Assembly (NCBI GenBank): GCA_027694045.1
Contig: JAQEWB010000001.1
Coordinates: 930,001-994,000, forward strand
Direction: 5' to 3'
DNA from: Bacillaceae bacterium OF18-1A
GTDB taxonomy: Bacteria; Bacillota; Bacilli; Bacillales; Bacillaceae_G
DNA: 64,000 nt
In this document: positions 18,942 to 22,889 of the stretch, piece after piece
Position numbering within the stretch: the first letter of the stretch is position 1
Layout: every line of letters starts with the position of its first letter
Position numbers and translations under genes: made by a program
Notes under the pieces: model-generated
Told to the model about the DNA's origin: nothing
Database searches by the model: none
Seen by the model: only the letters and a program-made list of their open reading frames with translations

Positions 18942-19996
18942 GACATAATCACCCCTTTTATATGATCTTTAATTTGTTCTATATCATTTGAAACACTTGC
19001 AATATCTAATGTATTAGAAGAGATTGCGATATCAGGATCTTTCAACCCATTTCCAGTTAAAACCGCAACAACTGTCTCTCCTTTTTTGATTTTTCCAGAT
19101 TGAACATGTTTAATAACGCCGGCTAATGAAGCATTTGATCCTGGCTCAGCGAAAACCCCTTCTGTTTTTGCTAATAATCTATACGCATGTAATATTTCTT
19201 CATCTGATACCATATCTATTTCACCGTGAGATTGTTCGGCAGCCTCTACTGCATATGACCAACTCGCTGGGTTACCGATGCGAATCGCTGTTGCAATTGT
19301 TTCAGGTTCTTCAATGACATGTCCTTTTACAATAGCAGCTGCTCCTTCCGCTTCAAACCCGTGAATTCTTGGCTTCTTATAGCCTTTTTCTTTCTCATAT
19401 TCACAGAAACCTTTCCAGTACGCTGTAATATTTCCAGCATTTCCAACAGGAATCGCTAAAACATCTGGTGCACTTTGCAACTGGTCACAAATTTCAAATG
19501 CTGCTGTTTTCTGCCCTTCAATTCGATAAGGATTCACTGAGTTTACTAGTGTAATCGGCTCTTCAGCAGCAATATTTCTTACAGCCTTAAGTGCATCATC
19601 AAAATTTCCTTCTATTGAAATGATTTCAGCTCCATAGGCGACTGCTTGCGCTAATTTTCCATGTGCAATCTTTCCTTCAGGGATTACGATTATACATTTC
19701 ATTCCAAGGCGTGCCGCGTATGCTGCGGCCGATGCCGAAGTATTACCTGTGGATGCACAAATAATTGCCTCCGAACCTTCTTCTTTCGCCTTCGCAACAG
19801 CCATTACCATACCACGATCTTTAAAAGAACCTGTCGGATTCGCTCCTTCATACTTACCGTATAACTGAATTCCTAATTGTTTTGATATATTTAATAACGG
19901 AATAAGAGGTGTGTTTCCTTCCATTAAGCTAACATCTGGTGTATTTTCATTCACCGGTAAATAAGAAGCATACTGTTTTAATAAGCCTTTATACAT
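18938..19996 (-). CDS. thrC: Threonine synthase
   Basis: This 352-residue PLP enzyme converts O-phosphohomoserine to threonine. The PLP lysine is in [11 protein letters not shown] (near residue 57). The phosphate-binding loop [12 protein letters not shown] and [15 protein letters not shown] are typical of the beta-family fold. The frame extends to 20014, but AGGAGGAAA fits the ATG at 19996 (MYKGLLKQY), giving the usual length. The start overlaps the hom end by 8 bases. It is cytosolic, in operon hom-thrC-thrB. Confidence 0.97.
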
Positions 19997-21284
19997 ATTG
20001 TTTTTCCTCCTCAATAATGTAATAACTGTTTATTTCACTTGCGACATCTTCTATCGCTCCTAGTACTCGTTCGAATTGATACTTTGAAGTTTGATGTGTC
20101 ACAACAACGACTTCTGCAAGTTCTCGATTTAAGGGTAATTGAATAATTTCCTTTAAGCTTACAGAGTATTTAACGAAACATTCTGTTATTTCTCTGAGCA
20201 TCCCAGGTTCATCTCGTAATGAAATACGTAAGAAATATTTCGAAACGACTTCTTCATCTCCTTGTAATTCATAAGGCTCTGGTTCTTTTAACATACTTTT
20301 ATTTTTCGGAACTTGATTCATATTTTTAACGATTGAAATAATATCACTTACAACAGCAGAACCAGTCGGTAATTTCCCAGCTCCAGGTCCGTAAAACATT
20401 ACTTCCCCTACTGCTTGACCGTGAACATACACTGCATTAAATTCATTATTTACATTCGATAATGGATGATGACTTGGTAAAAGAGTCGGTTCTACACTTA
20501 AATGAATGGCTGACCCTTGTTTCTCTGCTTTACCAATTAATTTCATAGTAAATCCTAACTTTTCAGCCATTTGTAAATCTTCTTTTTCGACCTTTCGAAT
20601 CCCTCTTACTTGCACATCATCTAAAGAAACATTCATCGAAAAACCTAAGTTTGCAAGAATGGCTACCTTTCTCGCCGCATCTAACCCATCTACATCCGCT
20701 GTTGGATCCGATTCTGCGAAACCTAATTTTTGTGCTTCTTGTAATGCCTCTTCATACGACCATCCCTTTTGACTCATCTTTGTTAACATATAATTTGTTG
20801 TGCCATTTACGATTCCCATTATTTTTTCAATTTGATCTGAAGCTAATCCGTCTGTTAATCCCCTTAACACCGGAATACCGCCCGCTACACTTGCTTCATA
20901 ACATAGATCACAATCATTTTCGTTCGCCAGGTGGAGAAGTTCCGCACCGTATACAGCCATTAAATCTTTATTTGCTGTTACGACATGTTTCTTATTTCGT
21001 AAAGCCTTAACAATGTGCTGCTTCGCTTCTTCAATTCCGCCCATTACCTCTACTACAATATCAATATTTGAATCATTTAGAACTTCATCGACATGACTTG
21101 TTACTACAATTCCATCAATACAAACATCACGTTCTTTTTCTAAGTCACGTACAACGACTGTCTTTACCTTCACTTCATACCCTGTATCAAGTGCAATTTT
21201 TTTATAATGTTCTTTCAAAATATGGACAACACCACTTCCGACCGTACCTAAGCCTAACACCCCAACATTAATAACGTTATTCAT
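19989..21284 (-). CDS. hom: Homoserine dehydrogenase
   Basis: This 431-residue enzyme reduces aspartate semialdehyde to homoserine with NAD(P)H, the branch point to threonine, isoleucine and methionine. Segments seen are the Rossmann loop GLGTVGSGV (residues 10-18), TANKDLMA near 105, the catalytic block with GGIPVLRGL and [11 protein letters not shown] near 150-170, and [18 protein letters not shown]-terminal ACT domain ([14 protein letters not shown] onwards, about 355-425) suggests amino-acid feedback. AGGAGGAG precedes the ATG by 8 bases. Upstream are a 27-codon ORF and two T-box leaders. Confidence 0.97.
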
Positions 21285-21306
21285 CTTCTAATCTCCTCCT
21301 ACAATT

Positions 21307-21390
21307 TTATTTTTTATCTTTATCAATCACCTTGCTCTGCTTTTTAATCATGCAGGTGGTGGTTATTTCCGTACGTACAAATCGTTTCAT
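21307..21390 (-). CDS. Candidate 27-residue leader peptide rich in Thr codons upstream of hom
   Basis: The ATG at 21390 is preceded by AAAGGAGGTG, a near-perfect ribosome binding site. The ORF ends 22 bases before hom. The peptide begins MKRFVRTEITTTCMIKK and ends KDKK. Codons 7 and 9-15 read Thr, Ile-Thr-Thr-Thr-Cys-Met-Ile, mostly products of the pathway that starts at homoserine dehydrogenase. The three consecutive Thr codons are all ACC, the same triplet as the likely T-box specifier. It lies after the T-box terminator, so it is translated only in full-length transcripts. A role as regulatory leader peptide is my inference; the ORF and its binding site are seen directly. Confidence 0.6.
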   Translation of the reverse strand: MKRFVRTEITTTCMIKKQSKVIDKDKK

Positions 21391-21416
21391 GTTACAGCAC
21401 CTCCTTTCAAAGTAAT

Positions 21417-21686
21417 AAAAAAACACACTCATCCCTAGGAAAGGGACGAATGTGTTTTCGTGGTTCCACCCTTGTTCCAACCTAGACATATTTCTCCCTA
21501 GATTGCTCAAGCTCAGATAACGGCTGATTCCGTCAATAATTACTAGATTTCTCGTTCACTATTGAAGTTCAAAGGTGGTAAAACCATTTCTCGTGTTAGG
21601 AAGCTCACACCCTTGGCTCCCCTCTCTGTAAACCGTAAAAATGATTTCATGTCCTTATCGTTACTTTTTCGTTCATGTTTATTTGT
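21417..21686 (-). promoter_or_regulatory. T-box riboswitch, unit 2 (proximal to hom), threonine type
   Basis: On the minus strand the leader holds the conserved T-box GGGTGGAACCACG (21459-21471). This is followed by a terminator hairpin (ACACATTCGTCCC with GGGATGAGTGTGT arms) and a T run ending at about 21417. Upstream is a long stem I region containing TTTTACCACCTTTGAAC, where ACC (Thr) is the likely specifier codon. Uncharged threonyl-tRNA would stabilise the antiterminator and let hom-thrC-thrB be transcribed. It is the second of two tandem copies. Confidence 0.92.
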
Positions 21687-21692
21687 TAACTC

Positions 21693-21720
21693 ATTATACT
21701 CGCATAAAAAACAAAATCAA
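21693..21720 (-). promoter_or_regulatory. Promoter of the proximal T-box unit
   Basis: Minus-strand TTGATT (21715-21720) and TATAAT (21693-21698) are 16 bases apart, directly before the proximal T-box leader. Confidence 0.65.
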
Positions 21721-21763
21721 TACTATTTTTTAATTATTTTTAATTTTCAATCTCCACATCCAT

Positions 21764-22033
21764 AAAAAAACACACTCATCCCTAGGAAAGGGACGAATGT
21801 GTTTTCGTGGTTCCACCCTTGTTCCAATCCAGACGCATTTCCTCCTAGATTGCTCAAGTTCAGATAACGGCTGATTCCGTCAATAATTACTAGATTGCTC
21901 GTTCACTATTGAAGTTCAAAGGTGGTAAAATCATTTCTCGTGTTAGGAAGCTCACACCCTTGACTTCCTTCTCTGTAAACCGTAAAAATGATTTCATGTC
22001 CTTATCGTTACTTTTTCGTTCATGTCTATTTGT
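21764..22033 (-). promoter_or_regulatory. T-box riboswitch, unit 1 (distal), threonine type
   Basis: This is a near copy of the proximal unit about 347 bases away. The T-box GGGTGGAACCACG is at 21806-21818, the terminator at 21764-21804 with the same arms, and the same TTTTACCACCTTTGAAC specifier region is present. Differences are scattered point changes. It gives the hom operon a second tRNA-sensing switch in series. Confidence 0.92.
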
Positions 22034-22039
22034 TAACTT

Positions 22040-22068
22040 ATTATAGTTATCAACTTTTTAAAAAGCAA
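22040..22068 (-). promoter_or_regulatory. Promoter of the distal T-box unit
   Basis: Minus-strand TTGCTT (22063-22068) and TATAAT (22040-22045) are 17 bases apart, directly before the distal T-box leader. The stretch 22069-22250 between it and the next gene shows only AT-rich sequence with a small dyad at 22132-22155. Confidence 0.65.
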
Positions 22069-22250
22069 GCCTATTTTTACTAACTATTTTCCAAAACTTC
22101 TTTTATTATATTTTACAATAGCATTATTCATCTACAAATGGATCTACCTATTTGTAATTTTCTCTACTTATAAATTAACATTTTATATATGAATATCCCA
22201 TTAAAAAAACATAGATACTCGTCTACCAAAAATATATTAATATATTTTTA

Positions 22251-22889
22251 TTAATACAATCTTTTCGTATAACTTTCTTCTAAAGAACGTGCAACATCTT
22301 CTTCTGAAGCATTCACTTTCGCATGCTCCAGCAACATTTTTGCTGCTGAAGGTAACTCTTTTTTATGTAACCAAGATTCCGGATCCCACATTTTAGAACG
22401 AATAAAAGCTTTTGCACAATGAATATAACACTCTTCTATTTCAACAACAATTCCAAGTAGCGGATTGCGTCCATTTACCTGCATTTCTTGCAAAATTTCT
22501 TCGTCGTTTGTTATATGCGCTCGGCCATTTATTCTGAGTGTCTCCCCAAGACCTGGAATAAAAAAGATTAGTCCTACACGTGGATTTGAAATAATATTCA
22601 AAATGGAGTCTATACGACGATTGCCCGGTCTTTCTGGAATGATAATTTTATTATGATTTAATACGTATACAAATCCAGGTGCATCTCCTCTCGGTGAAGC
22701 GTCACACTCTCCTAATTTATTTGCCGTAGATAATACTAGAAAAGGAGATTTAGACAAAAAGTCTATGCAATGGTGGTCTAATGATGAAATAACTTTTTTT
22801 AAAGCTCGTTCACTTGGTTGCCCCAATATTCCCCGTAATTCTTCCTCTGTTGAAATAATCGATTTTATTTTCTTACTCTCTATTCCCAC
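22251..22889 (-). CDS. Pyridoxamine 5'-phosphate oxidase-fold flavoprotein (MSMEG_1061-like)
   Basis: This 212-residue protein has the split-barrel FMN-binding fold. Segments seen are CIDFLSKSPFLVLSTAN, the SPRGDAPGFV block that should hold FMN phosphate, and the PGNRRIDSILNIISNPRVGLIFF strand pair. Members are FMN-dependent oxidoreductases of unknown substrate. The frame extends to a TTG at 22928, but AAGGGGG lies 8 bases before the GTG at 22889, which I take as the start. It is divergent from the NUDIX gene, with the promoters in a short shared region. Confidence 0.82.
   Translation of the reverse strand: MGIESKKIKSIISTEEELRGILGQPSERALKKVISSLDHHCIDFLSKSPFLVLSTANKLGECDASPRGDAPGFVYVLNHNKIIIPERPGNRRIDSILNIISNPRVGLIFFIPGLGETLRINGRAHITNDEEILQEMQVNGRNPLLGIVVEIEECYIHCAKAFIRSKMWDPESWLHKKELPSAAKMLLEHAKVNASEEDVARSLEESYTKRLY

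Follow-up and report, generated by a model that had tools for sequence, protein, structure and literature searches.

A putative threonine-coded leader peptide between tandem T-boxes and the homoserine dehydrogenase gene of a Bacillaceae bacterium

In a stretch of 64,000 nucleotides (nt) from Bacillaceae bacterium OF18-1A, a member of the B. cereus group (contig JAQEWB010000001.1, hereafter the window, with positions counted from its first letter), the homoserine dehydrogenase gene hom is preceded by two T-box RNA motifs and, between the second of these and the gene, by a short open reading frame (ORF) with three consecutive threonine (Thr) codons. By analogy with the rtpA gene of B. subtilis, this ORF may well be a translated Thr-coded leader peptide that provides a second check on charged tRNA-Thr after the T-boxes, acting through the position of the ribosome and not through RNA pairing. 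The ORF (21307..21390; all features described here are on the minus strand) has 27 codons plus a stop codon, extends from ATG at 21390 to TAA at 21309-21307, and encodes the peptide MKRFVRTEITTTCMIKKQSKVIDKDKK, to which related peptides exist in protein clusters. Its ribosome site, GAAAGGAGGTG (21398..21408), is a Shine-Dalgarno (SD) sequence complementary over 11 nt to what we take to be the 3' end of 16S rRNA, and the ATG follows 7 nt downstream. The original prediction correctly described this 27-codon ORF (21390-21307) with its ribosome site in front, its codons 7 and 9-15 (Thr, Ile, Thr, Thr, Thr, Cys, Met, Ile) and its end 22 nt before the ATG of hom at 21284.

The leader ORF lies directly after the terminator stem-loop of the second T-box (21419..21459), which is the sole terminator-like site listed by a terminator scan of 21250-22260, so that none was found between the leader and hom. 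Both T-boxes match Rfam family RF00230, the first at 21786..22017 (106.9 bits) and the second at 21439..21670 (104.2 bits), and in our own reading of the Rfam alignment the specifier of each aligns as ACC (Thr), the same codon that is tripled at codons 10-12 of the leader (ACC ACC ACC, 21355..21363). The hom ribosome site, GTAGGAGGAG, occupies 21293..21302, and hom itself, assigned by homology, spans 19989..21284 and encodes 431 amino acids; thrC-like and thrB-like reading frames, assigned by eye from ORF translations, are located downstream of it. Tandem T-boxes before hom1-thrC-thrB have been described for Bacillota in the available text of PMC12452182.

Leader peptides are not limited to enteric bacteria, to which the original prediction assigned the known thr leaders. 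In B. subtilis rtpA, a T-box is already known to be combined with a leader peptide that codes for the matching amino acid, according to the accessible parts of PMC11255114; both transcription and translation of rtpA are induced, as described in excerpts of PMC4027176. In a locus with an rtpA 100% identical to the query (L161), the T-box is found at 1156-1403 with its specifier aligned as UGG, and the DNA after it reads as AAAGGAGGTG and the peptide MYDGWWWHSR, with the stop codon 20 nt before rtpA. The hom locus resembles it in the succession of a T-box, AAAGGAGGTG and a short ORF in which the amino acid of the T-box is encoded three times in succession, in the placement of the leader stop (22 nt before hom and 20 nt before rtpA), and in having no terminator between leader and gene. 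The two loci differ in the amino acid (threonine as opposed to tryptophan), in the tandem T-boxes of hom, in leader length (27 codons versus 10), in the gene that follows, which is biosynthetic at hom and a regulator at rtpA, and in a hairpin that is present in the codon run of the hom leader. The T-box and leader peptide of rtpA, which encodes anti-TRAP, were reportedly described by Chen and Yanofsky in 2003 and 2004, together with a steric model. To our knowledge, rtpA is the only natural example in which T-box and leader peptide are directed at one and the same amino acid.

As a control, T-boxes were collected from three genomes (21, 33 and 22 matches), and with 7 upstream members of tandem pairs left out these gave 69 downstream stretches, or 70 including that of hom. 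An SD-led short ORF before the gene was found in 9 of the 70 regions, and three identical residues in a row in 3, namely WWW at rtpA, TTT at hom and EEE in an ORF that starts with TTG before an alaS-like gene. With the specifiers read for rtpA and hom, these two alone combine an SD-led short ORF with a triple run of the T-box's own amino acid. In 56 of the 70 regions the control script identified a long ORF led by an SD, and some of the genes were therefore missed.

The codon run is also unusual for the window itself. ACC is its rarest Thr codon: 49 long ORFs, with 15672 codons in all, have 871 codons for Thr, of which 26 are ACC. The two strands of the 64 kb together contain ACCACCACC a single time. 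Among the six strong-SD short ORFs of the window, TTT is present only in this leader, and Thr codons 10-12 as rare as these appeared in 1 of 20000 random synonymous draws.

Related leader peptides occur in other strains of the B. cereus group. A 40-residue query holding the leader retrieved 22 protein clusters and a profile of 15 sequences added 6 more, giving a total of 28, including the window's own (P0135), that represent 25 distinct leader peptides. All named sources belong to the B. cereus group, namely cereus, thuringiensis, toyonensis, wiedmannii, paramycoides, tropicus, mycoides and mobilis. At the peptide level, and among peptides found by similarity, TTT at residues 10-12 is intact in 21 of the 25 and at least two Thr are retained in all 25. 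Residues M1, T7, E8, T11, C13, Q18 and I22 are invariant, and within the central part of the peptide residues 15, 17 and 19 are the most variable. Annotation places the protein start upstream of the leader in 15 clusters, and 13 of these upstream parts read like the end of a T-box. The reading frame in the window is likewise open further upstream to a TTG at 21510 (67 amino acids), from which several database proteins are annotated; this extension covers the T-box and is probably non-coding. Residues corresponding to the hom ribosome site follow the leader in P0140, P0141 and P0147, and in P0141 the hom start is covered as well; these leaders are thereby linked to hom. In two clusters of B. 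toyonensis (P0123 and P0124), the leader and its ribosome site are present and the in-frame upstream residues are unlike a T-box end; judging from these residues, the T-box may have been lost or replaced in those strains.

From the observed ORF with its ribosome site and codons, the T-boxes, the geometry of the locus, the occurrence of the peptide in relatives and the match to rtpA, we infer leader translation, ribosome stalling, occlusion of the hom site and the direction of the effect, of which the direction, borrowed from rtpA, is the weakest step. Uncharged tRNA-Thr would cause the T-boxes to let RNA polymerase through, and on the read-through RNA ribosomes would load at the strong leader site. 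With ordinary ribosome footprint sizes, a ribosome that reaches the UAA at 21309-21307 when Thr-tRNA is plentiful would cover the RNA as far as about 21297, a position within the hom ribosome site, and impede initiation there. When Thr-tRNA is short, the ribosome would instead stall on ACC ACC ACC with its front edge near 21351-21345, leaving the hom site, more than 40 nt further on, free.

The E. coli thrL leader, with ATT ACC ACC ACC, also precedes a homoserine dehydrogenase gene, and both peptides begin with MKR; between thrL and thrA, however, lie an inverted repeat rich in G+C and a run of T, whereas no terminator follows the hom leader, and transcription attenuation of the thrL type was therefore rejected. 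Codon-specific leader peptides have also been proposed in Firmicutes, such as the leucine-rich attenuator of S. aureus ilv and the His leaders of Bacillus (PMC5794164; PMC2965389, as far as their available text goes). The hom leader resembles these in kind, but they replace a T-box and act on a terminator. If the proposed role is correct, this arrangement for threonine, ahead of a biosynthetic operon, would point to more than one origin for the double sensing of a single tRNA in transcription and in translation, and it would offer a system in which each of the two layers could be isolated and measured. A simple scan rule also follows, namely to search the interval from a T-box terminator to the next gene for repeated codons of the amino acid that the T-box senses.

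A search for comparable arrangements before hom was made in other genomes. Of the hom scans of genome contigs, one gave no locus and another gave, as its best 80 loci, genes of 46-59% identity, none from the B. cereus group by title, and the leader was not found by tblastn or by peptide pattern in 74 loci kept from DNA searches (19, 16 and 397 genomes). Searches of plasmid and viral collections yielded no leader match; a viral match to a degenerate leader pattern (ACT ACT ACA TGT) was rejected, its surroundings being unlike the leader locus. The start of hom was located in 122 loci, a redundant set that includes two at 33% identity and omits L071, which had no start, and these comprise 111 distinct upstream stretches with 74 SD-like short ORFs. 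TTT was seen at a single locus, L055, in two nested non-ATG ORFs that end 91 nt short of hom and have a weak ribosome site, and it was not taken as a leader.

A T-box motif was found within 1 kb of none of the 122 located hom starts, although the motif missed degenerate copies in one genome (G007). These copies, at L103 and L110, score 36.9 bits, below the cut-off, and L110 also has a full T-box further upstream. The T-boxes of G007, which carry ACC, lead directly to the start of hom or of a hom-like gene, with no leader ORF in between; the assembly contains an N run and looks chimaeric. The nearest hom for which DNA was available (L116 of G030, 72% identity) has no T-box match and no visible leader. 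No report of a leader peptide before hom in Bacillus was found in open-licence PMC text, and the terms 'leader peptide', 'anti-TRAP' and 'rtpA' do not occur in the T-box review PMC7583486.

Several points weigh against a Thr-sensing leader. Outside the B. cereus group, the loci searched gave no such leader ahead of hom, and its conservation is seen at the peptide level, where synonymous change is invisible; since the peptides were found by similarity, this conservation is partly built in and broken copies are missed. Some hom leaders (P0140, P0141 and P0147) stop on or past the hom ribosome site, and co-translated genes are commonly separated by about 22 nt, so that the leader could help hom rather than hinder it. 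Even in the precedent the codon run is not obligatory: of 20 rtpA loci, 1 has WWW and 10 have WW, 3 have two Trp that are separated, and 6 have one Trp. In folding predictions, the basis of all pairing results given here, the leader's own ribosome site is partly closed and costs about 3.3 kcal/mol to open; in the best 155-nt fold the Thr codons close part of it, and pairing of their C-rich arm with this site is high (equalled by 21 of 400 synonymous shuffles). The rarity of codons 18-21 on their own (matched by 25 of 20000 draws) has no explanation in Thr sensing, and the C-ending Thr codons could be due simply to the hairpin formed with them. As a speculative reason for the rare codons of the hairpin, the CCACCACC run, which resembles the 16S anti-SD, would pair with both ribosome sites, and an in-frame AAGGUG would keep it occupied.

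A possible explanation, if not a probable one, is that the strong ribosome site is itself the working part, either because ribosomes or 30S subunits shield the mRNA from 5'-3' decay or because they feed hom by translational coupling, the Thr codons being incidental. Stabilisers of the first kind are known as STAB-SD, with the core GAAAGGAGG, a string that is absent from the text of the cry3A paper cited next. The cry3A gene of B. thuringiensis has such a ribosome-binding mRNA stabiliser, according to the available text of PMC4113751. As in cry3A, a strong ribosome-binding sequence lies in a long 5' leader within the same species group, and the 11-nt complementarity of GAAAGGAGGTG to the 16S 3' end fits a sequence of this type; the gap of 22 nt before hom would suit coupling. 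The STAB-SD of cry3A, however, starts no translation, whereas GAAAGGAGGTG is followed at 7 nt by an ATG and by a frame that, with its Thr run, recurs in 25 distinct peptides, and a run of rare ACC codons is not predicted by ribosome loading.

It is fairly unlikely that the conserved element is instead an RNA hairpin, for mRNA processing or protein binding, with the Thr run a by-product of its C-rich arm. The hairpin (21328..21361, CACC-A-CCUGC paired with GCAG-A-G-CAA-GGUG) has rare codons in both arms, and rarity is confined to them: codons 10-13 and 18-21 were matched by 0 of 20000 synonymous draws, whereas the remainder of the ORF is ordinary (16755 of 20000). Pairing between the arms is high, being equalled by 10 of 400 synonymous shuffles, and a 42-nt stretch cut around the hairpin folds with z -2.26 (3 of 200 shuffles as stable); residues 11, 13, 18 and 22 are invariant, and 15, 17 and 19 vary. 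The hairpin was, however, noticed first and tested afterwards, and longer folds are no more stable than expected (z -0.96 for 81 nt, -0.31 for 101 nt and +0.52 for 151 nt). A start codon with a strong site, and the conserved T7 and E8, are not predicted by a hairpin.

More doubtful still is a three-sensor device, in which two T-boxes and the leader would read the same ACC-decoding tRNA-Thr, the ACC run would serve both as codon sensor and as a C-rich arm swapping partners between the leader site, an in-frame decoy (AAGGUG) and the hom site, and ribosome position and folding together would set hom translation. As a separate observation, AUUACUUUG (21415-21407), located ahead of the leader site, can form a 9-nt pairing with CAAGGUGAU (21334-21326) in the 3' arm of the hairpin, as an alternative to the hairpin.

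A chance ORF is very unlikely: the ORF is short, the region is AT-rich and no such ORF was found before hom outside the B. cereus group, but its ribosome site, codon run and recurring peptide would not be expected by chance.

Least probable of all is the mechanism that was first proposed for this ORF, in which base pairing to the Thr codons would close the hom ribosome site until a stalled ribosome releases it. The complementarity behind it is real, as the C-rich arm can pair with the site at 8 of 10 positions with two A-A mismatches, worth -5.2 kcal/mol as a lone structure. Pairing with its own downstream arm is nevertheless worth -7.7 to -8.8 kcal/mol, and the pairing with the hom site is ordinary (118 of 400 synonymous shuffles as high). 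The hom site costs 1.2-1.8 kcal/mol to open, depending on the stretch folded; of the 21 SD-bearing genes in the window, 4 are easier to open, and the median is 2.98. With modelled ribosomes on codons 7, 10, 11 and 12 the cost is 0.95-1.31 kcal/mol, compared with 1.19 for the free RNA, so that stalling frees nothing that was previously closed. The site is thus predicted to be open in all modelled states and not sequestered until a ribosome stalls, as in a translational attenuator of that type. An open hom site is required by the steric model. What stands of the original attenuator is a Thr-coded leader placed after the T-boxes to act on hom translation, with no terminator in between, and what is not supported is the release of the hom site by broken pairing.

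A few further observations concern the precedent and the locus. Three rtpA leaders (L163, L165 and L166) read 17 nt into rtpA, like the hom leaders P0140, P0141 and P0147, and in L164 and L168 the leader frame is that of rtpA and remains open. The Hom cluster P0001, 98% identical to the Hom protein of the window, has no ACT domain among its precomputed Pfam domains, whereas many other Bacillaceae Hom clusters list PF01842 or PF22629. A promoter-like sequence (TTGATT-16-TATAAT, 21720-21693) lies between the two T-boxes, in a scan that gave 5 sites against 4.2 expected by chance, and the second T-box may therefore have its own transcription start.
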